Of a DNA stretch of 35,323 nt, positions 3,473-33,274 are shown one piece after another; within the stretch, counting starts at the first letter, position 1, and every line of letters starts with the position of its first letter. The position numbers and the translations under genes are program-made. The notes under the pieces were generated by a model, which did no database searches, was not told the DNA's origin, and was given only the letters and a program-made list of their open reading frames with translations. Origin of the DNA: Bacteroidota bacterium (lineage in GTDB: Bacteria; Bacteroidota; Ignavibacteria; Ignavibacteriales; Ignavibacteriaceae); the NCBI GenBank assembly GCA_021783875.1, contig JAJXTM010000005.1, positions 1-35,323 on the forward strand. Reading direction: 5' to 3'.

Positions 3473-4558
3473 TTAAAACACTTTATTAATTATTTCCGGA
3501 ATTTTTTCAAGCGGCGCAATAACATCGGATAATCCAGCGTCAACTATTGCTTTAGGCATTCCAAAGACAACGCAGCTTTGTTCATCCTGTGCAAGGCTAT
3601 AACCGCCTAAACTTTTTAATTTTTTAATACCTTCAAATCCGTCTTTCCCCATACCCGTCATTATTACACCTAAAGTATATTTACCATAAACATCAATAAC
3701 GGAATCCATCATTACATCCACAGACGGACAATGCAGAGTCGAAGACGGCTCTTTAGAAATAACAATATTAGTTCTTCCAAAAGAGGAATTATTTAATGTC
3801 ATATGGAATCCGCCCGGAGCAATGTATACGAATCCCGGGCGAACTAATTCGCTGTCTTCAGCTTCTTTAACTTCAAGCTCACTTAGACTATTTAATCTTT
3901 CGGCAAGTGATTTTGTAAATTTCGGAGGCATATGCTGCACGATGAAAATCGGACAATTAATTTTTTTTGATAAAAGAGGAATAACTTTTTGCAAAGAGAA
4001 TGGTCCGCCAGTTGAAATACCTAATGCAATCGCCTTATAATTCATCCTTGGTAATTCACCACGCGCAGATATAAGAATCTTTTCTGGAGTTGTTTGAAGA
4101 TTTAATCTATGTATTCGATTTAATCTATTATGTATAACATTATGTTTAACAATCTCCTTAATTTTTGCAACGAGTTCCTCTTTTATCTTAATGATGTTCA
4201 CATTTACAAAAGACAATTCTTTAGGGATAAAATCCACGGCGCCTAATTCTAAAGCCTTGATCGTAATATCAGCGCCTTCCGTAGTAAGAGAAGAAACCAT
4301 TAAAACAGGAGTAGGACAGTCTTTCATAATCTTTGAAAGGGCTGTAAGACCATCCATTTTCGGCATTTCAATATCGAGAGTAACAATATCAGGTTTTAGG
4401 GATTTAACTAAATTATATCCCTCCAGGCCATCTTTCGCAGTTGCAATTACCTGGATATCAGGATCGCTTTCGAGAAGAATAGAAATAGATTTTCGCATAA
4501 AAGCAGAATCGTCAACGACGAGTGCTTTAATTTTATTATTTATAGTGTTAGTTGGCAA
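3473..4558 (-). CDS. cheB: Chemotaxis protein-glutamate methylesterase CheB
   Basis: CheB removes methyl groups from receptors and is activated by phosphotransfer from CheA. The 361 aa protein has an N-terminal receiver (about residues 9-125, acidic pair in VVDDSAF, phospho-acceptor in PDIVTLDIEMPKMDG) and a C-terminal methylesterase domain (about 165-358). All three catalytic elements are visible: Ser in ALGISTGGP, His in IVQHMPPKF and Asp in GVIMTGMGKDG. The start overlaps the end of cheA by 11 bases, so translation is coupled. With cheR in the same operon this supplies a complete methylation-adaptation pair. Confidence 0.97.
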   Translation of the reverse strand: MPTNTINNKIKALVVDDSAFMRKSISILLESDPDIQVIATAKDGLEGYNLVKSLKPDIVTLDIEMPKMDGLTALSKIMKDCPTPVLMVSSLTTEGADITIKALELGAVDFIPKELSFVNVNIIKIKEELVAKIKEIVKHNVIHNRLNRIHRLNLQTTPEKILISARGELPRMNYKAIALGISTGGPFSLQKVIPLLSKKINCPIFIVQHMPPKFTKSLAERLNSLSELEVKEAEDSELVRPGFVYIAPGGFHMTLNNSSFGRTNIVISKEPSSTLHCPSVDVMMDSVIDVYGKYTLGVIMTGMGKDGFEGIKKLKSLGGYSLAQDEQSCVVFGMPKAIVDAGLSDVIAPLEKIPEIINKVF

Positions 4559-13695: not shown

Positions 13696-14181
13696 TTATG
13701 CAACCTCCGAAAGGGATTTTTTTTCACTGTTTGAAAGCACCTTTTCAATATCAATAAGAGTAATTAATCTATCTTCAAGCTTACCTACAGCCATTATAAA
13801 CTCTGAATTAATTCCAGTAACCAATTCAGGAGGTGGTTCCGTTATATTCGTCGGAATTCTTAGTACTTCTTTTACCGCGTCAACAATAAAACCAACTGTT
13901 TTATCTTTAACTTCAACTACAACAATTCTAGTATTTTTGTCAAATTCTTTTGTGGATAAACCAAGTTTTGTTCTTAAATCAATTACGGGAATAACTCTAC
14001 CTCGCAGATTTACAACTCCGCTAACAAATGCCGGCGCATTTGGAACTTTTGTGATTTGAAGCATTCTATTAATTTCTTGAACAGACAATATATTTATAGC
14101 GAATTCCTCGCTGCCAATCATAAAGCTCACTAATTGCAGTAATTCCGAAGTCCCCTTTTTAGAATCCTCCAACTTAGACAT
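13696..14181 (-). CDS. cheW: Chemotaxis coupling protein CheW
   Basis: CheW links CheA to receptors in the chemosensory array. The 161 aa protein is a single CheW-like beta-barrel domain, with QLVSFMIGSEEFAINILSVQEI, VVNLRGRVIPVIDLRTKLGL and TVGFIVDAVKEVLRIP in the expected order. The start ATG has a good ribosome site (AGGAGTCAAA). It heads an operon with the TonB-C protein, the receptor and hemerythrin, separate from the main che operon, and has its own strong sigma28-type promoter. Confidence 0.95.
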   Translation of the reverse strand: MSKLEDSKKGTSELLQLVSFMIGSEEFAINILSVQEINRMLQITKVPNAPAFVSGVVNLRGRVIPVIDLRTKLGLSTKEFDKNTRIVVVEVKDKTVGFIVDAVKEVLRIPTNITEPPPELVTGINSEFIMAVGKLEDRLITLIDIEKVLSNSEKKSLSEVA

Positions 14182-14243
14182 TTTGACTCCTAAAACATTT
14201 TATACTAATTAATTACAAATTTATCCGGTTTATCTCTAGGATA

Positions 14244-14270
14244 TTATCGAAAAATATTTAAATTATTTTA
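14244..14270 (-). promoter_or_regulatory. Sigma28 (FliA) promoter of cheW
   Basis: The minus strand reads TAAA, 15 bases, then TTCGATAA, matching the sigma28 consensus TAAA-N15-GCCGATAA in the -35, in the spacing and in six of eight -10 bases. The predicted start site near 14237 gives a leader of about 56 bases before cheW. The same two elements with the same spacing occur on the opposite strand 122 bases away for the divergent kinase gene. Confidence 0.75.
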
Positions 14271-14391
14271 GAGATTTTTAAAGAAATAATTTAGTCATAA
14301 GAATTTTTGGGGGAATAGCGCATTTCTGTAAGCGTAAAGAATTTGGTTCAGGAAGATTTTATACCATTTTTTGAATAAATTTGAGTAAAAT

Positions 14392-14418
14392 TAAAAATAA
14401 TCATTTATTTTTCGATAA
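14392..14418 (+). promoter_or_regulatory. Sigma28 (FliA) promoter of the hybrid kinase gene
   Basis: The plus strand reads TAAA, 15 bases, then TTCGATAA, with the same -35 and -10 elements as the cheW promoter. The predicted start site near 14425 leaves a leader of about 44 bases before the ATG at 14469. This places the receiver-PAS-kinase gene in the late flagellar regulon. Confidence 0.72.
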
Positions 14419-14468
14419 TAAAATGATATTAGCAGAAAAATACAAGAAATAAAAAGTAAGTTTATATA

Positions 14469-16460
14469 ATGGGAAAAATTAAAATTCTAATCGTAGAAGA
14501 TGAAGAAAATATTGCTTTTTCTTTAAAAGAAACATTAGAAGATTTCGGATATCAAGTGGTTTCAATTGTTGATAATGGAGAAGATGCCATTAGTACAGTA
14601 GTTGAAGAAAAAGTAAACCTTATATTGATGGATATTGTTTTAAAAAGTGAAATGAGCGGGACAGAGGCGGCAAAATTAATTTGGGCTAAATTTAATATCC
14701 CTATTATTTTCTTAACCGGATATTTGGATAGAGAACTTGTTGATAAAGCAAAAATATCAGAGCCATTTGGATATATCTTAAAACCATTTAATGAACGCGA
14801 ACTTTTTGCTATTATTGAAATAGCGCTTTATAAATTTCAGATTGAAAGAAAGACTCACCAGTTAAACTCACTATTAAAAATTGCAAGAAATATTAATCAA
14901 ACGATAAATAAAGCTGAAGATTCCCATAAATTGATAAAAAAGGTATGCAAACACTTTATTAGCTCTGACGATATTTTAAGTGCATGGGTAATATTAATAG
15001 ATGATTTAAATAATGTTACATCAATTATTGAAGAGGTTCCTGAAAAAAAATTCCGGCAAATAGAATCGGATTTAAGCAGAATAGAATTTCCACAATGGGT
15101 AAGAAAAGTTTTGACAGAAAAACAGATATTAGAAGTTCCATATTCAAATGCATCCAAAAACAGAATTACTTTTCTAGATACTTCTGAAAAATTTATAAGT
15201 ATAAGGATTGAATCAAGGGAGAAAATTTTTGGAATATTGAATCTGATTTTTAAAGATCGAAATATAGAGAATGAAGAAATATCACTATTGTTAAGTATTT
15301 CTAATGATATTGCTTTCTCGCTAAGTTCTTTTGAGATTCAGGAAAAAGTAAAGTTGACCGAAGAAGCCTTAGTTGAATCTGAGAAGAGATATATTCAATT
15401 CATTAAGACTACTCAAAACGCAATAATTATTCATCAATCTGGAAAAATCATATTTGCTAATGATGCTTGTCTTCAGCTTTTTAAAGCTTTCAATGAAAAT
15501 GATCTATTAAATAAGAAATTATCTGACTTTTTTTTATTTGTAAATGAATCTACTATATTGCAAAAAAATGAGCAAAGGGATTTGCAGAACTTTCTTCAAG
15601 AGCAAAAATTGATACAGTTAGACGGTTCCATAATTGACGTCTCAATAAGTTCAAGCCCAATAGTTTTTCAAAATGTAAATGCGGATCAATTGGTTATAAA
15701 AGATATTTCAGAAAGAATAAAATCAGAAGAAGAAATAAAACGCTATTCAAAAGAATTAGAAGAATCAAATGCAAGTAAAGATAAATTCTTTTCAATTATT
15801 TCTCATGATTTACGCAGCCCATTTCAAGGATTATTGGGATTAGCAAATATAGTTACAGAAGAATTTGATGATTTGACAAAAGAAGAATTAAAAGAATTTC
15901 TCGCCAATATAAACAGATCTTCAAAAAATCTTTTTAATTTAATCGATAATTTGCTTCAGTGGTCAAGACTGCAAAGAAAAAAAATTGATATTGAGCTTAT
16001 TCAAAATAATTTATATTCTGACATTTATTATAATATAAACTTATTAAAACCAAATGCTGATTCAAAATTCCTTAGCATCATTGTTGATGTAAAAAAAGAT
16101 TTGGATGTTTATTCTGATTCAAATGCCTTTAACTCAATTCTACAAAATCTACTTTCAAATGCCATAAAGTTTACAAAACCCGGGGGTAAAATCGAGATTT
16201 CTGCAATAGAGAAAAATGGTTTTATTGAAATTATTATATCTGATACCGGGGTTGGTATTCCTGAAGAAGTAATCCCGTTATTATTTAGAACCGATAACCA
16301 GCATTCCACACAAGGGACAGAAAAAGAGACAGGAACGGGACTTGGATTAGTCATATGCAAAGAATTAGTGGAAATGCAGGGTGGGAAAATCTCTGTAAAA
16401 AGTAAGAAAGACTTTGGAAGCTCCTTTGCTTTTACATTAAAAATGGTAAAACCTACTTAA
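14469..16460 (+). CDS. Hybrid signalling protein: receiver-GAF-PAS-histidine kinase
   Basis: This 663 aa cytoplasmic protein has an N-terminal receiver (about 4-120, IVEDEEN, phospho-acceptor in LILMDIVLK, Lys in YILKPFN), a GAF-like region (about 135-290) and a PAS domain (about 305-415). A HisKA domain follows with the His in FSIISHDLRSPFQGL (about 440), then an HATPase domain with NAIKFTKPGG, SDTGVGIP and GTGLGLVICKEL. It has no membrane segment. Receiver-first kinases usually take input from another kinase and pass it on. No response regulator follows it: the convergent sigma54 regulator on the other strand overlaps its stop by 8 bases. A strong sigma28-type promoter ties it to motility. 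Confidence 0.9.
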   Translation: MGKIKILIVEDEENIAFSLKETLEDFGYQVVSIVDNGEDAISTVVEEKVNLILMDIVLKSEMSGTEAAKLIWAKFNIPIIFLTGYLDRELVDKAKISEPFGYILKPFNERELFAIIEIALYKFQIERKTHQLNSLLKIARNINQTINKAEDSHKLIKKVCKHFISSDDILSAWVILIDDLNNVTSIIEEVPEKKFRQIESDLSRIEFPQWVRKVLTEKQILEVPYSNASKNRITFLDTSEKFISIRIESREKIFGILNLIFKDRNIENEEISLLLSISNDIAFSLSSFEIQEKVKLTEEALVESEKRYIQFIKTTQNAIIIHQSGKIIFANDACLQLFKAFNENDLLNKKLSDFFLFVNESTILQKNEQRDLQNFLQEQKLIQLDGSIIDVSISSSPIVFQNVNADQLVIKDISERIKSEEEIKRYSKELEESNASKDKFFSIISHDLRSPFQGLLGLANIVTEEFDDLTKEELKEFLANINRSSKNLFNLIDNLLQWSRLQRKKIDIELIQNNLYSDIYYNINLLKPNADSKFLSIIVDVKKDLDVYSDSNAFNSILQNLLSNAIKFTKPGGKIEISAIEKNGFIEIIISDTGVGIPEEVIPLLFRTDNQHSTQGTEKETGTGLGLVICKELVEMQGGKISVKSKKDFGSSFAFTLKMVKPT

Positions 16461-17844
16461 TATTTTTTGTTACTTCTATTCCCAATTGTTCCATCCTATA
16501 TCGAAGCTTCGATCTGGAGAGACCTAGAATTTTTGCGGCCTTAACTTGATTCCCGTTTGAGATTTTTAATGTTTTCTGAATTAAAGTCTTAAGAACGACA
16601 TCAATAGCTATACCTTTTGGAGGGATTTGAAGAATAAATTTATTTTCATCTTCTTTTTGAGATTCAGTATTTTTAATAAGAAAACTGAGATGAAAATCTT
16701 TAAGTTCATCATCTTCTATTAAGAGCACTGCTCGCTCAATTACATTTCTTAATTCGCGTACATTTCCTTTCCAATAATATGAAGTTAATAATTCCATTGC
16801 TGAGGAATCAACTCCTCTTATCTTCTTATTAAATTTCGCAGCAAATTCTGTAAGAAATGAAAGTACAAGAATTGGAATATCTTCTTTTCTTTCTCTTAAA
16901 GGAGGAATTAAAATTCGTGCAACATTCAATCGATAAAATAAGTCCGCTCTAAAGTTACCTTTTTCTACTTCTTCTTCAAGGTTGCGATTTGTAGCAGCAA
17001 TTATTCTGACATTAATAGCAATTTCTTTTTCGCCTCCAACTCGATAGAATTTTCTTTCCTGAAGAACTCGTAATAATTTAACTTGAAGATCTAGAGAAAG
17101 CTCTCCGATTTCATCAAGTAAAATTGTGCCTCCATTTGCAAGTTCAAATTTTCCTAGTTTTGTTTTTTGAGCTGCACCAGTAAAAGCTCCCTTCTCATGC
17201 CCAAATAATTCACTTTCAGCTAATTCTTTAGGAATTGCAGAACAATTAATCTGAATAAAAGGACCTTCTTTTCTGGGACTTCTTTGATGTATAAATTTTG
17301 CGTACACTTCTTTACCAGTACCGCTCTCACCTTCCAAAAGAATTGTTGTATCTGGACTCACAGAAAGTTTTTCAACAGAATTAATTAACCTGATAATCTT
17401 AGTACTTTTGCCAAAAAAATCTTTTGTTAATTCATCACTTTTAATTATTTGGTGCAGTTTTTCAACCTCAGCTCGGAGCTGTAATCCTTCTAAAGCTTTA
17501 TTAATAACTAATTGAAGTTGATCTATATCAATCGGCTTTAATAAAAAATCAAAAGCACCAGACTTAATTGCTGTAACTGCAATTTTAACGTCCGAATAAC
17601 CGGTAATCATGATTACGGGGATATGATAAAATTTTTGTTGAAATTGTTTAAGTATGTTTAAACCATTGTGCGTAGTTAAGTAAATATCAAGTAAAATAAT
17701 ATCCGGTTGGAATTCTTCCGTTTTTAAAATGGCTTCTCCTCCCTCTTGACAAGTATCTACATCATATCCAAGTTTTGCCAATAACTTTTTTAGTGAAAGG
17801 CACACTAAATCATCATCATCTACAATAAGAATTCTAAAGCTCAT
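16453..17844 (-). CDS. Sigma54-dependent response regulator, FlgR/FleR-like
   Basis: This NtrC-family activator has a receiver (about residues 3-120, VDDDD, phospho-acceptor in PDIILLDIYL, Lys in FLLKPID), an AAA+ domain and a Fis-type helix-turn-helix (GNQVKAAKILGLSRSKLRYRM). In the AAA+ domain, Walker A is GESGTGKE, the sigma54 contact loop is GAFTGA and Walker B is GGTILLDEIGE. I use the ATG at 17844 (MSFRILIVDDDD), which overlaps the kinase stop by 11 bases; the longer track start adds 31 residues unlike any receiver. Next to flgM and a soluble kinase, it resembles the regulators that switch on sigma54-dependent flagellar genes. The exact targets are inferred. Confidence 0.93.
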   Translation of the reverse strand: MSFRILIVDDDDLVCLSLKKLLAKLGYDVDTCQEGGEAILKTEEFQPDIILLDIYLTTHNGLNILKQFQQKFYHIPVIMITGYSDVKIAVTAIKSGAFDFLLKPIDIDQLQLVINKALEGLQLRAEVEKLHQIIKSDELTKDFFGKSTKIIRLINSVEKLSVSPDTTILLEGESGTGKEVYAKFIHQRSPRKEGPFIQINCSAIPKELAESELFGHEKGAFTGAAQKTKLGKFELANGGTILLDEIGELSLDLQVKLLRVLQERKFYRVGGEKEIAINVRIIAATNRNLEEEVEKGNFRADLFYRLNVARILIPPLRERKEDIPILVLSFLTEFAAKFNKKIRGVDSSAMELLTSYYWKGNVRELRNVIERAVLLIEDDELKDFHLSFLIKNTESQKEDENKFILQIPPKGIAIDVVLKTLIQKTLKISNGNQVKAAKILGLSRSKLRYRMEQLGIEVTKNIK

Positions 17845-18550
17845 TGTTTTTTTGCATAAGATTAGGATTAAATTTGATAAAAAACTTTGTTCCGACCCCA
17901 AGAGTACTTTCAAAATATAGATCGGCTTGATATTCAAGAAGCAGCATTTTACAAACGCTCAATCCGAGACCTGTTCCTTTTTCCTTACTAGTAAAGAAGT
18001 CCTGGAAAATTTTGTCCTTATCATCATCATTGATTCCGACACCAGTATCTTCGATCTCCCAAATAACAAAATCAGTATCTTGGCGGTAAGTTTTTATGGC
18101 AATATTACCTCCAGTTTCGCAAGATTCAATGGCATTACTTATTAAGTTTAGAAAGACTTGTAGAAGTTTACTTTTATCATAGTAACCTAATGGAAGGTTA
18201 TTATCAGGAAATAATTTAATATAGACATTCTTTTTAAGTGCATTGGGAAGCATTATATCTACAGCATTGCGTGTAATTTCATTAATTGAGCATTCATTAT
18301 TATAATTTGAATTTTTTCTGGCAAATGTCAGTACATTATCTATTAAATAATGAATTCGTAAAAATGCATCTGTGCAAACATCAACAGATTCTATTGCCTC
18401 AGACGGTAAATCTTTTTCTATCATTTTTAGATAGTCTAAATTAAGCTTTATGGCGGAAAGTGGATTGCGGATTTCATGCAACAAACTAGCAGTTAATTTA
18501 CCCATTAATTGCAATTTGTTATCCTGAACGTTATCTAAGGTTTGTGACAT
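17834..18550 (-). CDS. Soluble histidine kinase paired with sigma54 regulator (FlgS-like)
   Basis: This compact 238 aa kinase contains only a HisKA domain (phospho-acceptor His in ASLLHEIRNPLSAIKLNL, about residue 26) and an HATPase domain (NAIESCETGG, EDTGVGIN, GTGLGLSVCKMLL). It has no membrane helix or sensor domain, so its input must come from protein contact. This form matches cytoplasmic flagellar-checkpoint kinases such as FlgS, which sense the state of the export apparatus. The downstream regulator overlaps it by 11 bases, so the two form a translationally coupled pair. It lies 129 bases after flgM. Confidence 0.9.
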   Translation of the reverse strand: MSQTLDNVQDNKLQLMGKLTASLLHEIRNPLSAIKLNLDYLKMIEKDLPSEAIESVDVCTDAFLRIHYLIDNVLTFARKNSNYNNECSINEITRNAVDIMLPNALKKNVYIKLFPDNNLPLGYYDKSKLLQVFLNLISNAIESCETGGNIAIKTYRQDTDFVIWEIEDTGVGINDDDKDKIFQDFFTSKEKGTGLGLSVCKMLLLEYQADLYFESTLGVGTKFFIKFNPNLMQKNNEL

Positions 18551-18943: not shown

Positions 18944-19276
18944 TCACCTATAATAATTAATTAACTTTGCTTTATTTTTTAATATCGCAATTTGTTTGCC
19001 GACTTCGGCAAACTTATTTTTTCTATCTGTGTATAAATTATCGAAAGTTTCCTGAATTTGTTTAGTTAAATCAACCAATAAAGGGTTATAATTTTCTAAT
19101 TGCTGTATAGGATAGGAATTTTTCAACTGTAATTTTAAGAAATTATAACTTTCCATCAAAGTTTTTGCGCTATTAAGATTATCATCAAAGTTCAAATCAT
19201 TTACGCTTTTTAACTTTTCCAATGCTTGTTCTAATAATATTCTTAAGGAATTAATTTCATCAATTAAATTTTTCAT
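18944..19276 (-). CDS. Probable flagellar export chaperone, FliT- or FlgN-like
   Basis: This 110 aa protein is predicted all-helical with heptad-like leucines (LRILLEQALEKLKSVNDL, then LLVDLTKQIQETFDNLY) and no signal peptide or membrane segment. It lies between fliD and flgM with 3 base gaps on both sides. FliT, the chaperone of the FliD cap, typically follows fliD and fliS, whereas FlgN, the chaperone of hook-junction proteins, typically neighbours flgM and flgK. Position fits both. Family similarity is not strong enough for a firm name. Confidence 0.6.
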   Translation of the reverse strand: MKNLIDEINSLRILLEQALEKLKSVNDLNFDDNLNSAKTLMESYNFLKLQLKNSYPIQQLENYNPLLVDLTKQIQETFDNLYTDRKNKFAEVGKQIAILKNKAKLINYYR

Positions 19277-21518: not shown

Positions 21519-22334
21519 TTATCTAAATAGTGCTAAAAGGTTCTGAGGAGCAGTATTAATATTGTACAACTGAGTAGTTCCAATTTGTTGCTGAATCTGA
21601 CCTTTAGTAGCGTTCAATTGAGCCGATGCCATATCCGCATCAAACAGTCTGCTTACAGTAGAGTTAGCATTAGTAACAGCTGAAGTCAAATAGTCGCTTT
21701 TAACATTTAGTCTTTGTACCCAGTTACCTATGCTGCCGAGTGCATCCTGAACTTCACTTTGTAAACTAGTTACTGTGCCACCAATTGCTGAAACAGTTGC
21801 AGAAGTTGCACCTGTTAATGAAGCAATCTGGGATCCCAAAGTGCTCATAGTTCCAAAATTGATAGTAGATGTTTCACTTACACCCGTCTGAAATACAAAG
21901 TTTGCACCGGTTGGCACACTAGCACCACTAAGAAGATTAGTGTTATTGAATTGTGTATTTGAGAATATTGAGCTAACTTCATTGCCAAGAGCTACAATAT
22001 CATTTGCAAGGGATGTTAGGTTCTTAGTCGGGTCATTAGCATCTGTAACCTTTCCCTGAACTTGTATCAAGAGATCGTTGATACTTGAAAGAGCGGATTC
22101 AGCTGTAGATAAGATATCTTTTGCAGAACCGACGTTATTTTGAGCAGATTGCATAATAGCAATTTTTCCCTGCAAATCTTTACCAACTCTGTAGCCTGAT
22201 GTGTTATCGGCAACTGAATTGATTTGTAAACCCGTAGCAAGCTGCAACTGGGCTTTAGCTGTGTTCTGGGTTGTTAGCGCAAGAGCATTGTAAGCTAATA
22301 ACGCGTTGACGTTTGTGTTGATTTGAAATGACAT
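21519..22334 (-). CDS. fliC: Flagellin (minimal, 271 aa)
   Basis: This is the filament subunit. The N-terminal D0/D1 region is well conserved (INTNVNALLAYNALALTTQNTAKAQLQLATGLQIN, then DNTSGYRVGKDLQGKI). The C-terminal D1/D0 region is also clear (RLNVKSDYLTSAVTNANSTVSRLFDADMASAQLNATKGQIQQQIGTTQLYNINTAPQNLLALFR). Between them lie only about 60 residues, so the surface D2/D3 domains are almost absent and the filament is probably thin and smooth. The start has a strong ribosome site (GGAGGT), and the gene is preceded by a sigma28 promoter and a structured leader and followed by a terminator. Confidence 0.97.
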   Translation of the reverse strand: MSFQINTNVNALLAYNALALTTQNTAKAQLQLATGLQINSVADNTSGYRVGKDLQGKIAIMQSAQNNVGSAKDILSTAESALSSINDLLIQVQGKVTDANDPTKNLTSLANDIVALGNEVSSIFSNTQFNNTNLLSGASVPTGANFVFQTGVSETSTINFGTMSTLGSQIASLTGATSATVSAIGGTVTSLQSEVQDALGSIGNWVQRLNVKSDYLTSAVTNANSTVSRLFDADMASAQLNATKGQIQQQIGTTQLYNINTAPQNLLALFR

Positions 22335-22414: not shown

Positions 22415-22419
22415 CTTCA

Positions 22420-22446
22420 TTATCGGAGGTTGATTTTAAAAGTTTA
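22420..22446 (-). promoter_or_regulatory. Sigma28 (FliA) promoter of fliC
   Basis: The minus strand reads TAAA, 15 bases, TCCGATAA, matching TAAA-N15-GCCGATAA in all positions but one. The predicted start site near 22413 gives a leader of about 80 bases. This is the expected late flagellar promoter for flagellin and serves as the local reference for the other sigma28-like sites in this window. Confidence 0.85.
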
Positions 22447-22684: not shown

Positions 22685-23449
22685 ATGAAGAAACATTCCT
22701 ATTTATTTGCCATTTTGATTTTCTTTCTTTTCATTTCAGGACAGGGATTTAGCCAAACAATGGACTCAGCTGCGGTTAAACCATTTAACGATGGTTTGGT
22801 TAAATCTCAAAAGGCAAATTATAAAGATGCCCTTGTAGATTTTGAAACAGCATTAAAATTCGATAAGGATTATAGGATATATTATCAAATAGGTTTTGCG
22901 CAGCAAAATTTGAATAATGCAGATGAAGCTATTCAAGCATACAAGAATACAATTAAGGCAAAACCAGATTTCGATGCAGCTTATAATAATTTAGGTAATG
23001 TATACTTCAACAAGGGTGATTACCAAGATGCAATTGATAATTTTCAAAAAGTATTGGACATTTCAAAAGATGATACTATTAAAAATGCCGTAAAATATAA
23101 TATGGCACTAGCTTATACCAATCTAGGAATGGCTGCTGAAAAGGCAAAGAATAATAAAAAAGCAGTATCTTATTTTAGCAAGGCAGTCAGTTATTACGAT
23201 TATGATGCGGCATATTCCTTTCTTGCCAGAGATTATTTTTTGCTAAACCAATTTGATAAAGCCATTGAAGCCGGTCAAAAAGCTATTAAATATAAGAAAA
23301 GCATAAGTGAAGGTGCAGCATATTATTGGATGGGAGTTTCATATAGTAAAAAGAAGGACATGAAAAAAGCTAAGGAGTATTTAGAATTAGCTAAAGCAGA
23401 CCCAGTATACAAATCATTTGCCGAGACGGTATTAAAGTCTCTTAAATAA
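22685..23449 (+). CDS. Secreted TPR-repeat protein
   Basis: This 254 aa protein has a signal peptide (hydrophobic stretch ending in QGFSQ, about residues 1-24) followed by tandem tetratricopeptide repeats. Clear repeats read AALKFDKDYRIYYQIGFAQQNLNNADEAIQAYKNTIKAKP and DAAYNNLGNVYFNKGDYQDAIDNFQKVLDI, with about six repeats in all. TPR domains bind other proteins, so it is probably a periplasmic scaffold. It stands alone on the plus strand with a strong terminator after it, and no catalytic motif is visible. Being next to fliC does not by itself show a motility role. Confidence 0.88.
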   Translation: MKKHSYLFAILIFFLFISGQGFSQTMDSAAVKPFNDGLVKSQKANYKDALVDFETALKFDKDYRIYYQIGFAQQNLNNADEAIQAYKNTIKAKPDFDAAYNNLGNVYFNKGDYQDAIDNFQKVLDISKDDTIKNAVKYNMALAYTNLGMAAEKAKNNKKAVSYFSKAVSYYDYDAAYSFLARDYFLLNQFDKAIEAGQKAIKYKKSISEGAAYYWMGVSYSKKKDMKKAKEYLELAKADPVYKSFAETVLKSLK

Positions 23450-23459
23450 TAATTTAGAG

Positions 23460-23482
23460 CCCCCGTAATTCGGGGGTTTTTT
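23460..23482 (+). terminator. Rho-independent terminator after TPR gene
   Basis: The stem CCCCCG-TAATT-CGGGGG is followed at once by TTTTTT and starts 11 bases after the TPR stop codon. It is the clearest intrinsic terminator in the window. Confidence 0.9.
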
Positions 23483-23518
23483 ATTGAAATGCTTTTAGTA
23501 AATCAAGCGAAAAGTGAG

Positions 23519-23542
23519 CAGTTATTATATATTAAATAACTG
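23519..23542. repeat. Inverted repeat upstream of sensor kinase gene
   Basis: CAGTTATT and AATAACTG are perfect 8 base inverted arms separated by ATATATTA, about 80 bases before the kinase start at 23621. The dyad symmetry and place suggest an operator for the kinase-regulator operon. The AT-rich make-up means chance cannot be excluded. Confidence 0.35.
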
Positions 23543-23620
23543 GAATATATGCTCGTTAAAAACTCTACCAGCAAAAGGTTGAATTAAAGTAAAATTCATC
23601 TTATTTTTATATCCATACCA

Positions 23621-25216
23621 ATGCTTAATATTATTAAAAATACTCTTCATATTATTTGTGAATTAACTAACAGCAATTCCGCCTTTTTGTTGGAAAGCAA
23701 TAACGGCATTAATAAAATTATTTCAAGTTACACCCAATCCAAAAGTTTGATATTCCAAAAATCCTTTTTGGAATATCTAAAAAAAGAATGCCCGCAAAAG
23801 TCCGAATTAAAGAGATCATCTAAAATTATAGATATTATGGGAGAATACTTTTTTGAATCTTATTATTCCAAAGATTTGGTTTTGAAACCTAAAAAAATTT
23901 GTCTGCTTCTCTTCGCTTCCAAAAAAAATAATTATACAAAAGATAAAATTAATATCATTAATAATTTAGCAAAGCTTTTAAAAAAGGATTTGGCAACTAT
24001 TTTAGCTGGAATCGATAATTTTCAAAAAAATGATATTTCAAAAATTAATTTCCCTTTTGATGTGATTTTTGAATTGGCATTTGATTCAGTAAATGATTTA
24101 ATTTTTTTTCTCGATAAAGATGGACGTTTCTTAAATATAAATCCTTCTGCGGTATCTCATCTTAATTACAATCTAAACGAAATAAAGTCAAAACATTTCA
24201 TTGATATAGTGTCCACGAAAAAAAGCGGGCAATTGGTAAAATCATTTTCAGAAATAATTAGGCAAAAGTCCAGGGTTACCTTCAGCACAGTTTTGATTTC
24301 AAAATTCTTTAAGGAAATTGAATTAGAGGTAATAGCTACCCCTTTTTTGAATGGCAATAATATTGAAGGGCTAATATTGTACGGTAAAAACATTACAGAG
24401 TTACAATCCTATGCCCAAAAGATGAAAGATTCTGAGACAAAATTAATTGAAGCTCAACGAATAATTTCAATTGAGAGAATGCGATCAAAAAGGCAAAAAG
24501 CTTTCCTTGAAGAGATGAATAAAATGAAAAAGGACTTTATATCTAACATTTCTCATGAACTAAGGACTCCTCTGGCATCAATAATTGGTTTTACAGAGAC
24601 AATTTATTCTGAGCCAAATATGGATAATGAAATGAGGAATGAATTTATTCAAATTATTCTTAATGAGGGTAAAAGACTTGCAAAATTAGTTAATGAACTT
24701 TTGGATATTTCTCATTTTGAAGAAACCTCCATAAAAATCATAAAATCCTCCTTTAATATTAGTAATTTAATGCTGGAAGCAATCAAGAATAATCAAACAA
24801 ATATTAATAAGAAAAAAATTATTCTTTCTCATGAAATTCAAGATGAAAATGTTATTTTAAATGGGGATAAAGAAAAAATTTTCCAAGTAATAGATAGCAT
24901 TTTAAAAAACTCAATAAAATATACAGAAGAAGAAGGGCGCATTTATATAACTTCTCAAAGTTTATTTAGGGAATTCGAAATATCAATTAGTGATACCGGA
25001 ATAGGAATTCCTGAGAATAATTTGAAAACTATCTTTCAAAAATTCCAGCGTATAAATTTTATTGACAAAAATACTGAAGAAACAGGTTTAAGCTTGGTTT
25101 TAATTAAACAAATTGTAGATTTACATAAAGGATTTATATCAATACAGAGTAATGAGAACAAGGGCACATCTGTAATTGTTAAATTTCCGAGGGAATTAAA
25201 TAGTTCAATAAATTGA
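23621..25216 (+). CDS. Cytoplasmic PAS sensor histidine kinase
   Basis: This 531 aa protein has no membrane helix. Residues 1-135 look like a divergent GAF-type domain. A PAS domain follows (about 150-270, LAFDSVNDLIFFLDKDGRFLNINPSAVSHLNY), then a coiled-coil linker, HisKA with the His in DFISNISHELRTPLASIIGFTE (about 310), and an HATPase domain (SILKNSIKYTEEEG, SDTGIGIPENN). The last glycine box reads EETGLSLVLIKQIV, where GTGLGL is usual, so ATP-lid geometry may be altered. It ends 9 bases before an NtrC-type regulator, which is its likely partner. Confidence 0.92.
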   Translation: MLNIIKNTLHIICELTNSNSAFLLESNNGINKIISSYTQSKSLIFQKSFLEYLKKECPQKSELKRSSKIIDIMGEYFFESYYSKDLVLKPKKICLLLFASKKNNYTKDKINIINNLAKLLKKDLATILAGIDNFQKNDISKINFPFDVIFELAFDSVNDLIFFLDKDGRFLNINPSAVSHLNYNLNEIKSKHFIDIVSTKKSGQLVKSFSEIIRQKSRVTFSTVLISKFFKEIELEVIATPFLNGNNIEGLILYGKNITELQSYAQKMKDSETKLIEAQRIISIERMRSKRQKAFLEEMNKMKKDFISNISHELRTPLASIIGFTETIYSEPNMDNEMRNEFIQIILNEGKRLAKLVNELLDISHFEETSIKIIKSSFNISNLMLEAIKNNQTNINKKKIILSHEIQDENVILNGDKEKIFQVIDSILKNSIKYTEEEGRIYITSQSLFREFEISISDTGIGIPENNLKTIFQKFQRINFIDKNTEETGLSLVLIKQIVDLHKGFISIQSNENKGTSVIVKFPRELNSSIN

Positions 25217-25225
25217 GGTAATTTT

Positions 25226-26608
25226 GTGAACAAATTAATTTTTATAGTAGATGATGAAATTGCTATTTCTAAACTTTTAACCTATTGGGTTAAAGACAAA
25301 TGGAAATATGATGTTGAAGTGTTTTCAAACGGGGAGGACCTTTTAAAAAGGATAGGTGCCAGACCTGATTTGATCCTGCTAGACATAATGCTTCCGGGTT
25401 TAAACGGAATTGATATATTAAAAAGAATAAAACAAATTGACGAAAATCTTCCTATTATAATTTTATCAGCTCAAGGGAGTATAGAAGTTGCGGTTGAAGC
25501 ATTAAAATTTGGCGCATTCGATTATTTTTCAAAACCAATAGATACCCAAAGGCTTGAGCCAGCAATCAAAAATGCTATTAAAAATTATGATTTGCTAAAA
25601 GAACTTGAAAACCTGAAAGATAATGTTAAACGAGAATACAGTTTTGATAATATAATTTCGGCTGACGGAAAAATGCAAGATGTATTTAAGTTAGTTTCAA
25701 AAGTATTAAATAACGATATTACAGTATTAATTCATGGAGAAAGCGGTACCGGCAAAGAATTAATCGCAAGGGCAATCCATTATAACGGAAGAAGAAAAAA
25801 TAATCCTTTTATCGTAGTTAACTGTGCATCGATACCGAGAGAACTTTTAGAAAGTGAATTATTTGGACATGAAAGGGGCTCTTTTACTGGTGCACATCAG
25901 CGTAAACTTGGTAAATTTGAGATTGCAAACGGCGGGACATTGTTTTTAGATGAAGTGGGAGAGCTTGAAATGCTTTTACAGGCAAAATTATTAAGAGTTA
26001 TTCAAGAAAGGGAATTCGAAAGAGTTGGTGGAAATGAATTAATAAAATCCGATGTCAGAATTATATCAGCTACTAACCGTGATTTAAAAAAAGCTGTTGA
26101 TGAAAAAAGTTTTAGAGAAGATTTATATTACAGACTAAATTCTTTTCCTATAAATTTACCCCCTTTACGCCAACGAAGGGGCGATATTTTAGTTTTAGCA
26201 CAACATTTTCTTGATACTTTAAATAAAAAATTACAGAAAAACATTAAAGGATTTACAAAAAAAGCAATAAAATTGATCTACGAATATAATTGGCCCGGAA
26301 ATATTCGGGAAATGGAAAATACCATTGAACGATGTATGATTATTGCTGAAAAAGATACTATTGATTTAGATGATCTTCCTGCGCATATTAAAGCTGCCGA
26401 TATTACAGGCTCGTTTGAATCATCCGGAACTTTATTTATTGATGAGAATATAATTCCTTTCGAAAAACTTAAAGAAGAAGCAATTAAACATGCTCTAAGA
26501 GTAACTGACGGTAATATCGTTGAGGCTGCAAAGAAACTGCAACTTGGAAGAGCTACAATTTACCGTTTAATGGAAAAATATAAAATCGAAAATCGATTAA
26601 GCGATTAA
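25226..26608 (+). CDS. NtrC-family sigma54-dependent response regulator
   Basis: This 460 aa regulator has a receiver (IVDDEIA, phospho-acceptor in DLILLDIMLPGLNG, Lys in YFSKPID), an AAA+ domain (Walker A GESGTGKE, Walker B GGTLFLDEVGE, arginine-rich VRIISATNRDLKKAV) and a Fis-type helix-turn-helix (DGNIVEAAKKLQLGRATIYRLM). The sigma54 contact loop reads GSFTGA, not GAFTGA, a change at a position that tolerates few residues. The start is a GTG at 25226 with GAGGT just upstream. It follows its kinase by 9 bases and is followed by STAS and PP2C genes, so its output may include those genes or a shared stress circuit. Confidence 0.93.
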   Translation: MNKLIFIVDDEIAISKLLTYWVKDKWKYDVEVFSNGEDLLKRIGARPDLILLDIMLPGLNGIDILKRIKQIDENLPIIILSAQGSIEVAVEALKFGAFDYFSKPIDTQRLEPAIKNAIKNYDLLKELENLKDNVKREYSFDNIISADGKMQDVFKLVSKVLNNDITVLIHGESGTGKELIARAIHYNGRRKNNPFIVVNCASIPRELLESELFGHERGSFTGAHQRKLGKFEIANGGTLFLDEVGELEMLLQAKLLRVIQEREFERVGGNELIKSDVRIISATNRDLKKAVDEKSFREDLYYRLNSFPINLPPLRQRRGDILVLAQHFLDTLNKKLQKNIKGFTKKAIKLIYEYNWPGNIREMENTIERCMIIAEKDTIDLDDLPAHIKAADITGSFESSGTLFIDENIIPFEKLKEEAIKHALRVTDGNIVEAAKKLQLGRATIYRLMEKYKIENRLSD

Positions 26609-26635
26609 AATTTTTAAATATATTTAGGCTTAAAA

Positions 26636-26974
26636 ATGGACTTTATTAGAGAAAAATATGATGATGTTATTGTAGAATGCGTCAATTTGACAAGAGCTAC
26701 ATTAAAAGAGGCTGAGGAGTTTAAGAAAACGCTAACTCAAGAAATAGAAATGGGGACACTTAAAATTGTCGTTGATTTGACCGAATGTGAATTTATAGAT
26801 TCTACTTTTTTGGGAGCTTTAGTAGTCTCTCTTAAAAAGATTACTGGATTAGGCGGAGACCTGCGCCTAGTCGGGTTTCAACCGGCCGTGCATTCGATGT
26901 TTGAATTAACACGTATGTACAGAGTCTTTGAATCATTCAAGACAAAAGAAGATGCAATTAATAGTTTCAAATAG
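26636..26974 (+). CDS. STAS-domain anti-sigma factor antagonist
   Basis: This 112 aa protein is a single STAS domain of the SpoIIAA/RsbV type. The strand IVVDLTECEFIDSTFLGALVVSLKKI aligns with the SpoIIAA segment holding the regulatory phosphoserine. The Ser follows the Asp as expected (Ser56), but the usual SGLG reads TFLG. Such proteins switch partners: unphosphorylated, they bind an anti-sigma kinase and free its target. No RsbW-type kinase gene is in this window, so the partner is elsewhere. The gene sits 27 bases after the NtrC-type regulator and 105 bases before a receiver-PP2C phosphatase that could dephosphorylate it. Confidence 0.9.
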   Translation: MDFIREKYDDVIVECVNLTRATLKEAEEFKKTLTQEIEMGTLKIVVDLTECEFIDSTFLGALVVSLKKITGLGGDLRLVGFQPAVHSMFELTRMYRVFESFKTKEDAINSFK

Positions 26975-27079
26975 TTTTCACCATTATAATAAATATTGAT
27001 AAATTCTGCCTTTTTAGGTATATGATATTATCTTAATTATTATTGATTTTACAAGTTTTAACCAAAATTTCTGATTGCA

Positions 27080-28648
27080 ATGAGTAATACAAATCCCAAA
27101 ACCATTTTAATTATTGATGATGATGTAACGATACGAAAAATCCTAATCCATAACTTAACCAAGAAACAATATCGAGTCTTCGAAGCAGAAAATGCAAATA
27201 AAGGGTTCGAGCAATTAGCAAATAATAAAATAGATTTGGTCCTTTGTGATGTTACCATGGAAGACATGGATGGATATACGTTTTGCAAAAAAGTTCGGGA
27301 GAATGAAAATTATAGAGTGTTGCCTTTCGTGTTCGTCACAGCTAAAGATTCAATGGAAGACAAATCCAAAGCTATGGATGCTGGTGGTGATGATATTATA
27401 ACAAAACCCTTTAATGTAGATGAATTAACATTAAAAGTTCAAGCATTAATAAGGCGAACCGAAATTTACAAAGTCTATGGCGTAAAAAAGAATCTTGAGC
27501 AATCATTTGCTAGAAATGCGGCAAAAATTTTATTAGTCGACGATGATTCAACTCTTTCTAAACTCTTTCAATATAATCTTAATAAAGCCGGCTTTGAATG
27601 TGAAACAGCCTCCAGTGTAGATGAAGGTTTATATAAAGCAAAAAAAAACACACCGGATTTAATCATTTCCGATATTATGATGCCAAATATTGACGGATAC
27701 CAATTTAGGAAAATGCTTCTTTCAGAACCGGAATTAAGAGCAATTCCTTTTGTATTTCTTTCCTCTAAAAGTGATGAAGAAGATATTCTTGGAGGATATG
27801 ATTTAGATATAACAGATTATGTACTAAAAACTGCCGGACCTCGTGTTGTTGTAGCAAAAGTAACTGCGATAATCCAAAGTCTCGGTAAAGAGAGACAAAA
27901 GATCGTCAGTGAATTGCATAACGCCGCGGACTCATTGCGTATAAAAGTAGTACCGGATAATTTCCCCCAATTTCAAGGCTTTAGTATTCAACATTGGCAT
28001 CAGCCATTTCAAGGCATTCCCGGCGGAGACTTTATTGATTATTATGTACTTGACCAGGAAAATTTAGCTGTAATTCTCGGTGATGTTATGGGGAAAAAAT
28101 GGGGAGCTTGGTATTTCGCTTTCGCTTATGCCGGTTATGTCAGAAGTGCAATAAGAGTAACATTAGAAACGACAAAAGAATTTATACCAAGCCAAATACT
28201 TCAGCAAGTAAATAAATCGGTTTACCAAGATGCTAAAATTTCTGAAGTTTTTGCTACTTTATCAATTGTAATTCTAAATAATAAGACTAAATCTATTAAA
28301 TACAGCGGAGCCGGTGACCTTCCCATTATATACAAAAATCATTTATCAGGAGAAGTAAAAAAACTTCAAGCCAGGGGTCTATTACTAGGATTTGCTGAAC
28401 AGGGAAATTATGAAGATGTGTCATTAAATTTACAGGAAAACGATAAAATATTTTTAGTAACTGATGGGATTATTGAATCTAGGAATTCCACAGGAGAGCA
28501 ATACGGAACATATCAATTAACAAGTGTATTAGAAAATCTTCAAGAAAACCAAGATTCGATACTAGAGTTGAAAAACAATTTTGAAGAATTTACTCAGAAA
28601 AAATTTGAAGATGATATAAGCTTAATAGCTATAGAGTCAATTAAATAA
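27080..28648 (+). CDS. Double-receiver PP2C (SpoIIE/RsbU-type) phosphatase
   Basis: This 522 aa response regulator has a protein phosphatase output. Receiver 1 (about 8-125) has IIDDDVT, VLCDVTMEDMDG and IITKPFN. Receiver 2 (about 148-265) has LLVDDDS and LIISDIMMPNIDG, but its final motif reads YVLKTAG without the usual Pro after Lys. The PP2C domain (about 300-520) shows metal-binding GGDFIDYY, GDVMGKKWGAW, LVTDGIIES and EDDISLIAI. Proteins of this form dephosphorylate STAS antagonists in response to a sensor kinase. The STAS gene lies just upstream. Two receivers would allow two inputs. Confidence 0.93.
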   Translation: MSNTNPKTILIIDDDVTIRKILIHNLTKKQYRVFEAENANKGFEQLANNKIDLVLCDVTMEDMDGYTFCKKVRENENYRVLPFVFVTAKDSMEDKSKAMDAGGDDIITKPFNVDELTLKVQALIRRTEIYKVYGVKKNLEQSFARNAAKILLVDDDSTLSKLFQYNLNKAGFECETASSVDEGLYKAKKNTPDLIISDIMMPNIDGYQFRKMLLSEPELRAIPFVFLSSKSDEEDILGGYDLDITDYVLKTAGPRVVVAKVTAIIQSLGKERQKIVSELHNAADSLRIKVVPDNFPQFQGFSIQHWHQPFQGIPGGDFIDYYVLDQENLAVILGDVMGKKWGAWYFAFAYAGYVRSAIRVTLETTKEFIPSQILQQVNKSVYQDAKISEVFATLSIVILNNKTKSIKYSGAGDLPIIYKNHLSGEVKKLQARGLLLGFAEQGNYEDVSLNLQENDKIFLVTDGIIESRNSTGEQYGTYQLTSVLENLQENQDSILELKNNFEEFTQKKFEDDISLIAIESIK

Positions 28649-31328: not shown

Positions 31329-31355
31329 TAAATATCATCGTTTTTTTTTCGATAA
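31329..31355 (+). promoter_or_regulatory. Sigma28 (FliA)-type promoter of unknown 614 aa gene
   Basis: The plus strand reads TAAA, 15 bases, TTCGATAA, the same elements and spacing as the cheW and hybrid kinase promoters. The predicted start near 31362 gives a leader of about 68 bases before the ATG at 31430. There is no other gene on this strand between it and the 614 aa coding region. Confidence 0.65.
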
Positions 31356-31429
31356 TCAATTAGGAGCATTATGTCCATTTAAAAAATGAATTTGAAAATT
31401 TTAATTAGTTTTAACTAAAAATAACGAGA

Positions 31430-33274
31430 ATGAATAATAAAATAAGCTATAGTGAAGAATTCGAGGACAATGCAATCGGTGCAATTATGTCTTCTAAATT
31501 TAAGAGCTTAGCAAAAGAATTCTTCCAATTGGATATTTCAGAAGGCTTTAACTATGAAAAGATAATTAAGGATAGCTCTCAATTATACAGCTTTAATCTA
31601 CCATTCGAGTTAAATGAGACTTTTATTCGTTTTGAAGACGCTCCAATTTTCTGGATAAAAAGATCCCCGATTATTATTTTATTAGAAAATTTTTACAAAC
31701 TTTCAATAGCCAATTTAAGCGGAAGGAATTACTATAAGACAGTTAGAGATTTTTATACAAAATGGTGGGTCATTAAGTCCGTAGAAGAAAAAAGATACTT
31801 TTCATCTTCAGCAATAAGTTATTTAGAAAAAAAAGCTAATAATAATAATATTCTTTTATTAGTATTTCATGCAATGATATTAGCTTATGATGAGTATATG
31901 TATGATCCTTTGAAATCTTTTGAACTTTTGGAACGTGCAAAGGAGAACATTAACCAATCAAGTATCAATGATGAGTATAAAAATGAAATAATTTATATAC
32001 TCAATATTTGTGAAGGATTTGTTTTTACAATTCAAAATGAATATAAGCTAGCTTATAATTATTTTGAATCAGCCTTAAAAATAAAACCAATAGGAGTGAC
32101 AGGAAAATTTTATTTTGCTTTTATTAACAGTTTAATAGATAATGATCCCATAGCAGAAGACATTTTAAACACTGTATATAGATTCGATTTATCAAGGATA
32201 GAGTATGCGATTGAACAGAACAGCACTGAAATGCTGGATCTTTTATTAAAATATCCTACTTTTAACAACTTCTTTCTATCAGCAGACTTATCATCATCTT
32301 ACGAAGTTATTTCTAACTTTTTAAGAAATATCAAGTCAATGGGCAATTATGATTTGCAAAAAATACGGGCAAACATAAATAATTTTAAAAATTTAAGTAT
32401 AGAAGATTACTACAATGAAGATACGAATTTAAATATAAATTACTTGGAAAAAATATTAAATAATTATTCAAAAAAAGAAAATGCCCTTTTCATAGGAGTA
32501 TCTGAAAAGTTACATACTAGATTCATTCAAACCATCGAGGCAATAATAAATAAAATTAAGGAAAAATATAGTTCAGAGACATTATCCAAACTTCATATAT
32601 ATGATAGTGAAATTCAAAATAAGCTGAATGAAATCCAAGCTTATACAAAAGAAAAAGATGAAGTAAAAAATAGGATTAAAGAACGCACCTCAAAAACAAT
32701 CAGTGCAATTGAAAAAAGAACTGCCGAAAACATAACAATTCTAGAAGAAAAAATTAATAATCTTCAATTTGTTGCAAATTTTGATCCTAAAGCAGCTTTT
32801 CAAAATGCGATGACTTACAATTTGATTTTGTCATTTACAGTTTTTCTGCTAGGAGGTTGTGCAGGATATACAAATAGTTCTTTCGAAGGTATTGGCTCTC
32901 TAAATTCTGCAATGGCAATAATATTAGTTAGCGGGTTAAAATGGGGCATAATAGCTTTTGGAATAGGAGTAGTGATATCTTTAGTGACTGCCGGATTAGC
33001 CGCTTTTGAAGGATCAAATCAAAAGCAAAAACTTTTTCAGAATATAAATAATTTAAAGAAAGAAAAAGATTTTCAAATTGAATATTTTAAAAAAGAAGCC
33101 GAGAACAGTGAAAGATTAAGTGAAGAAAAGATTAACAAGGCAATTGAGGATAAGAAAAAATATATCGATAAGCTGAGAAATGAAAGAGCAAACCAAGAAA
33201 AAAAATATAATGATGAATCAACAATTAAAATGGACAATGAATGCAAACCACTACAAAAGTTAATTGATTTTTAA
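31430..33274 (+). CDS. Unknown 614 aa membrane and coiled-coil protein, sigma28-linked
   Basis: I do not recognise this family. Residues 1-380 are helical and soluble, with a TPR-like section at about 140-240 (for example YKLAYNYFESALKIKP). A coiled coil rich in Lys and Glu covers about 385-450 (AYTKEKDEVKNRIKERTSKTISAIEKRT). Two membrane helices follow (MTYNLILSFTVFLLGGCAGY at about 463-483 and WGIIAFGIGVVISLVTAGLAA at about 500-522), then a second long charged coiled coil to the end. There is no signal peptide, so both soluble parts probably lie in the cytoplasm with a short hairpin across the membrane. A strong sigma28-type promoter upstream suggests co-expression with flagella. Confidence 0.85.
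   Translation: MNNKISYSEEFEDNAIGAIMSSKFKSLAKEFFQLDISEGFNYEKIIKDSSQLYSFNLPFELNETFIRFEDAPIFWIKRSPIIILLENFYKLSIANLSGRNYYKTVRDFYTKWWVIKSVEEKRYFSSSAISYLEKKANNNNILLLVFHAMILAYDEYMYDPLKSFELLERAKENINQSSINDEYKNEIIYILNICEGFVFTIQNEYKLAYNYFESALKIKPIGVTGKFYFAFINSLIDNDPIAEDILNTVYRFDLSRIEYAIEQNSTEMLDLLLKYPTFNNFFLSADLSSSYEVISNFLRNIKSMGNYDLQKIRANINNFKNLSIEDYYNEDTNLNINYLEKILNNYSKKENALFIGVSEKLHTRFIQTIEAIINKIKEKYSSETLSKLHIYDSEIQNKLNEIQAYTKEKDEVKNRIKERTSKTISAIEKRTAENITILEEKINNLQFVANFDPKAAFQNAMTYNLILSFTVFLLGGCAGYTNSSFEGIGSLNSAMAIILVSGLKWGIIAFGIGVVISLVTAGLAAFEGSNQKQKLFQNINNLKKEKDFQIEYFKKEAENSERLSEEKINKAIEDKKKYIDKLRNERANQEKKYNDESTIKMDNECKPLQKLIDF

Follow-up and report, generated by a model that had tools for sequence, protein, structure and literature searches.

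Sigma-28-type promoters pair cheW with a putative receiver-controlled sensor kinase in an Ignavibacteriaceae flagellar locus

In a flagellar and chemotaxis locus from an uncultured member of the Ignavibacteriaceae, the gap between cheW and a divergently oriented sensor kinase gene holds two outward-facing sigma-28-type promoters, and its setting makes the kinase a well-supported candidate for a late flagellar (class III) gene. The window, that is, the whole stretch of 35,323 nucleotides analyzed, is a contig of a 2.8-Mb genome bin (80% complete), and Pfam annotation of its open reading frames (ORFs) identified it as a flagellar and chemotaxis locus. The gene run on the cheW side comprises fliF, a flgC-like gene, cheB, cheA, cheZ, two single receivers, cheR, a HEAT-repeat gene, a hemerythrin, an MCP, a TonB-C protein, and cheW, while beyond the kinase lie an NtrC-type regulator and a small kinase (FlrC/FlrB-like), an 86-aa FlgM-like ORF, orf110, fliD, fliS, and fliC. 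The reading that we favor overall, with moderate confidence, is that two sigma-28 late promoters act here and that one of them makes a soluble kinase, controlled by its receiver, which takes a CheA-type input, gives a CheY-type output, and tunes swimming.

The gap between cheW (161 aa; 13696 to 14181, minus strand; Pfam CheW 1.3e-41) and the kinase gene (14469 to 16460, plus strand) is 287 bases long, and a sequence scan showed TAAA-N15-TTCGATAAT facing outward on both strands. The cheW-side site (14243 to 14270, minus strand) reads TAAAATAATTTAAATATTTTTCGATAA from 14270 to 14244, and the kinase-side site (14392 to 14419, plus strand) reads TAAAAATAATCATTTATTTTTCGATAA from 14392 to 14418; the spacer is N15 and the next base T in both cases. 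Both sites are exact for a TAAA -35 and a CGATAA -10 element at canonical spacing (15 bases, then two free bases). An earlier, sequence-only reading of this DNA had described twin divergent sigma-28 motifs with the same elements and spacing in a gap of 287 bases, and we found both motifs in place and the length correct. It had also set the sites 44 to 56 bases before the start codons, which holds for the predicted transcription starts, about 7 bases downstream of each -10 end, but not for the -10 ends themselves, which lie 50 bases upstream for the kinase and 62 for cheW. When spacings of 13 to 17 were allowed, the window contained four motif matches compared to 0.26 expected from shuffles. 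With a promoter profile whose training set was confined to 16 flagellin promoters, all from outside the genus, we obtained p of ~0.002 for each side of the gap against shuffles of the gap. A search of the gap for sigma-70-like sites gave none that was better, and a sigma-70 reading of the kinase promoter was rejected because its sole match coincides with the sigma-28 sequence. Every available sequence test agrees, and the assignment of both sites as sigma-28 promoters is well supported; the promoters themselves are ordinary.

The reference promoter in this genome is that of the flagellin gene fliC (21519 to 22334, minus strand; Pfam Flagellin_N and Flagellin_C), which reads TAAACTTTTAAAATCAACCTCCGATAAT at 22419 to 22446 on the minus strand, and the same motif precedes flagellin in most of the order genomes examined. 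In the order, most of the 30 regions upstream of flagellin that we compared had TAAA-N15-NNCGATAA about 75 to 180 bases before the start codon, and most of 30 cheW upstream regions carried the same motif, nearer the gene. The gap sites are identical in motif and spacing to the flagellin promoters of the genome and of the order. A FliA-type sigma gene was found at positions 3603 to 4232 of locus L063, directly after flhA-flhF-flhG, as expected for fliA, and with HDOD and flg genes after it; it scores below the NCBIfam curated cut-offs, with FliA/WhiG as its best families, and the same split FliA/WhiG match was seen in other genus members. FliA sites mapped in E. coli have the same form and include one bound CGATTAT site (PMC4183435). 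The class III promoters of E. coli and Salmonella share the TAAA and CGATAA elements and their spacing with those described here, as well as the placing of flagellin, chemotaxis genes, and probably flgM under one motif. Here, however, TT or other bases replace GC before CGATAA and T is preferred after it, the locus encodes a sigma-54/NtrC-type pair rather than FlhDC, and a sensor kinase would belong to the regulon.

The 663-aa product of the kinase gene can be described, from Pfam matches, the invariant Asp55 and His446, and a fold model, as a probable receiver-controlled sensor histidine kinase, with a receiver at residues 6 to 116 (Asp55), a GAF-like region at ~130 to 290, a PAS domain at 318 to 415, HisKA at 437 to 502 (His446), and HATPase_c at 550 to 659. 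The receiver-GAF-PAS-kinase order proposed earlier was upheld for the receiver, PAS, HisKA, and HATPase_c domains, which exceed the Pfam cut-offs; the GAF domain was sub-threshold in this protein and is backed by its relatives, among two of which GAF_2 reaches 4e-5, and by the fold model, which has a GAF-like order of helices and strands at ~130 to 290 (pLDDT ~65 to 90 there; mean 68.6, a moderate confidence overall). The receiver pocket is intact, with D11, E12, D55, T83, and K105 invariant in nine orthologues, as are H446 and the N- and G-box residues of the ATP site. An NCBIfam search placed the kinase in no named function.

LvrB structures were among the fold matches of the kinase model, and in LvrB of Leptospira phosphorylation of the N-terminal receiver frees the catalytic domains and activates the kinase (PMC13269768). 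The two are alike in having an N-terminal receiver that controls, or here would control, a C-terminal kinase; unlike the kinase described here, LvrB has only ~378 residues, which leaves no room for GAF and PAS domains in its middle part, and its role is a different one, with a downstream partner that is known. A second precedent is CheS3 of Rhodospirillum centenum, a REC-REC-PAS-kinase that is phosphorylated on its receiver by CheA3 and itself phosphorylates CheY3 (PMC3868531). CheS3 resembles our kinase in its N-terminal receiver, PAS domain, and kinase encoded beside che genes, with CheA as candidate input and CheY as candidate output, but it has two receivers and an HWE kinase, whereas the protein described here carries a single receiver plus a GAF-like domain, has a kinase of the HisKA type, and is encoded in a flagellar locus that includes CheZ. 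With this domain set (one receiver, GAF-like, PAS, and HisKA), the kinase does not belong to the CheS3 kind, although its mode of action may be similar. On the strength of the LvrB and CheS3 precedents we therefore favored an input through the receiver from CheA or another kinase, sensing by the GAF and PAS domains, and a CheY-like output.

The favored working of the kinase would be as follows. The two outward class III promoters would be read by sigma-28 (FliA), the minus-strand promoter giving CheW and whatever is co-transcribed and the plus-strand promoter giving a soluble sensor kinase with its own N-terminal receiver. In model species, FlgM holds sigma-28 until the hook-basal body is complete, so that the kinase should appear with flagellin and the chemotaxis proteins; FliA freed after that stage would transcribe cheW, fliC, and the kinase gene together. 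Another kinase, for which CheA is the obvious candidate, would then phosphorylate Asp55, and a ligand or a redox or energy signal on the GAF and PAS domains, together with the Asp55 phosphate, would set autophosphorylation at His446. The phosphate would pass to a stand-alone receiver, for instance one of the two CheY-like proteins, and the kinase would tune swimming once flagella exist. The sigma-28 dependence, the timing, the CheA input, and the CheY output are what we infer; a tie of the kinase to the flagellar and chemotaxis system is plausible, and its promoter, position, and co-occurrence point to a chemotaxis- or motor-linked role.

FliF and a kinase orthologue occurred together in 10 of 13 genus genomes (in one, G002, the kinase gene lies in pieces at contig ends), and the three genomes without FliF also lacked the kinase, a co-occurrence that is confounded by physical linkage, since loss of the locus removes the kinase. 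Scored with the flagellin-trained profile across orthologous gaps, the cheW-side site was retained in nine of nine genus genomes, all the flagellated ones open to this check. The kinase-side site was likewise found in 9/9, with the exact 15-base spacing (five CGATAAT and four CGATTAT), where the count includes the region directly upstream of the orthologue in L049 and the remaining eight sites lie within the gap; three of these eight, all CGATTAT forms, had individual p of only 0.04 to 0.09. The L049 site, TAAATAATTTCCAATATTCTTCGATTAT, falls outside the cheW-adjacent gap because another kinase gene entered between cheW and the orthologue, and it stands directly before the orthologue, not before the intruder. 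Among the kinase orthologues, the distance from site to start codon ranged from 49 to 339 bases. That the site stays with the kinase in all nine genomes despite rearrangement suggests selection for co-expression with flagella. The motif, whose absence from orthologous gaps the sequence-only reading had named as evidence against itself, was thus present in them, and its proposal that this promoter makes the kinase a late flagellar gene is well supported by motif, spacing, conservation, and the FliA gene.

The kinase shared 57 to 60% identity with its nearest relatives compared to 80 to 88% for neighboring genes, and in some relatives the kinase has gained one or two PAS domains or occurs as tandem copies; its sensor part evolves fast. 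From the retained promoters we conclude that this rapidly evolving kinase is very probably produced only once flagella are complete. Two or three tandem PAS kinases lie between cheW and the NtrC-type gene in L049 (6009 to 11990), L050 (6270 to 11325), and L053 (7943 to 11842); several of them have their own N-terminal receiver, and such receiver-bearing kinases could form a kinase-to-receiver chain. No orthologue outside the genus was accepted among the order relatives examined; the best candidate, beside cheW in L186 (37% over the full length), was rejected because another kinase of this genome matches it first. In L189, cheW directly adjoins the NtrC-type gene with no kinase between them, and in five other genera (L184, L185, L190, L191, and L200) unrelated sensor kinases without a sigma-28 site stand beside cheW. 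The cheW site itself is retained in other families of the order. As this site is kept outside the genus while the slot is empty or filled by siteless kinases, we take the cheW promoter to be old and the kinase with its promoter to be a genus-level addition.

The recurrence of unrelated kinases beside cheW, the low identity of the kinase relative to its neighbors, its gains of PAS domains and tandem copies, and its absence from L189 would all fit a tentative alternative, in which the promoters are real and the kinase is a passenger, a general energy, redox, or nutrient sensor that sits beside cheW, is expressed in motile cells, and has its output to a non-motility regulator elsewhere; what speaks against a passenger is the 9/9 retention of the sigma-28 site with the kinase through rearrangement.

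The neighboring regulator offers a different output. An NtrC/FlrC-type flagellar sigma-54 activator (16453 to 17937, minus strand; Pfam receiver, Sigma54_activat, and HTH_8; gene order kept in the genus) is convergent with the kinase gene and overlaps its 3' end by 8 bases, so that the earlier statement that no partner regulator lies beside the kinase did not hold. This regulator has its own tandem small kinase, an FlrB-type protein of 238 aa without a sensor domain (17834 to 18550, minus strand; Pfam HisKA and HATPase_c), which gene order marks as its presumed partner, and the 663-aa kinase is thus still without an assigned one. The pair is of the FlrB/FlrC and FleS/FleR kind; unlike FlrB and FleS, the 663-aa kinase has a receiver and a late promoter and is not the kinase of the pair. 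It is nonetheless conceivable, if improbable, that the 663-aa kinase feeds the NtrC-type regulator and thereby provides feedback from late sigma-28 expression to the sigma-54-dependent middle genes, as the genes overlap, the regulator's own kinase lacks a sensor domain, and even in model species no signal is known for kinases of the FlrB and FleS types (PMC3930126). However, the two genes are convergent and not an operon, the closest NCBIfam families of the 238-aa kinase are NtrB-like ones, AtoS and ZraS among them, as expected of an NtrC partner, and the 663-aa kinase belongs instead to the SHDLRSPF class, which is usual in hybrid and orphan kinases. Beyond fliC, the window also holds, at 22685 to 28648, a second sigma-54 activator with a PAS kinase, a STAS protein, and a double-receiver SpoIIE-type phosphatase, which suggests a partner-switching branch adjoining the flagellar locus.

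We also counted the bare pattern TAAA-N15-NNCGATWA alongside seven control patterns (reversed, base-swapped, or wrongly spaced). The nine orthologous gaps (4,000 bases) gave 17 matches compared to 0 for each of the seven controls, and all 165 kb of these loci gave 36 compared to 0 to 3. Genome-wide, density was ~5 to 9 sites per Mb in flagellated genus members and ~5 to 6 in non-flagellated ones; with flagellated genomes only modestly richer, such counts were rejected as proof of function, and the argument therefore rests on place and conservation. It is very improbable that one or both motifs are chance matches or relics, with housekeeping promoters in use, for although the gap is AT-rich and the bare motif is not rare genome-wide, the controls in the orthologous gaps and the sigma-70 search both argue against it.

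Further sigma-28-type sites were noted in the window and in related loci. A perfect site at 19064 to 19037 (minus strand) lies inside orf110 (18944 to 19276, minus strand), 96 bases before the 86-aa FlgM-like ORF (18940 to 18680, minus strand; Pfam FlgM 3.5e-4, sub-threshold). We saw this intragenic site in every one of 15 loci, which span at least two families, and the Phe/Tyr codon that it contains ended in C in 14/14, while in the window genes TTT/TAT codons number 135 and TTC/TAC codons 22; the conservation and the C-ending codon point to selection on the DNA for an intragenic promoter driving the anti-sigma factor. Sense-strand sites inside flagellar genes were also seen at 1501 to 1528 in L115 (C258) and in L119 and L120 (C343), located in motA, ahead of a fliK-like gene, and ahead of a flagellar-operon ORF of 124 aa. 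G005, G007, and G009 have almost the same sequences, and intragenic sigma-28 promoters may thus be a habit of the genus. Another site (31329 to 31356, plus strand) precedes orf614 (31430 to 33274, plus strand), whose 614-aa product matched no Pfam or NCBIfam family. Relatives stand next to flagellin or close to it in L189 and L196 and within a che locus in L195; the L189 relative (28% identity) has a CGATTA-type site 124 bases ahead of the matching region, and orf614 is a probable uncharacterized late flagellar gene. Finally, an intergenic site at 1501 to 1528 in L005 (C32) lies 164 bases before a PAS-containing sensor protein (410 aa, open-ended), possibly a second sigma-28-controlled sensor.

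In the open-access literature on sigma-28 with orphan or hybrid kinases and on flagella of the Ignavibacteria, we found no prior description of this arrangement. Together, the results extend the sigma-28 regulon and its promoter rules to an almost unstudied group of flagellated bacteria and put forward a sensor kinase there as one of the late flagellar genes, the pairing of such a kinase with a sigma-28 promoter being modestly new. The kinase becomes a concrete candidate for an input to swimming other than chemoreceptors, and the place beside cheW a recurrent landing site for sensor kinases. More speculatively, and we would not press the point, the genus-specific kinase may have joined the sigma-28 regulon to give the motor a second input through GAF and PAS domains (CheA to receiver, kinase to CheY-like protein), allowing chemoreceptor-free sensing of energy or a ligand only after the flagellum is built, in a slot that relatives have refilled repeatedly with other sensors.
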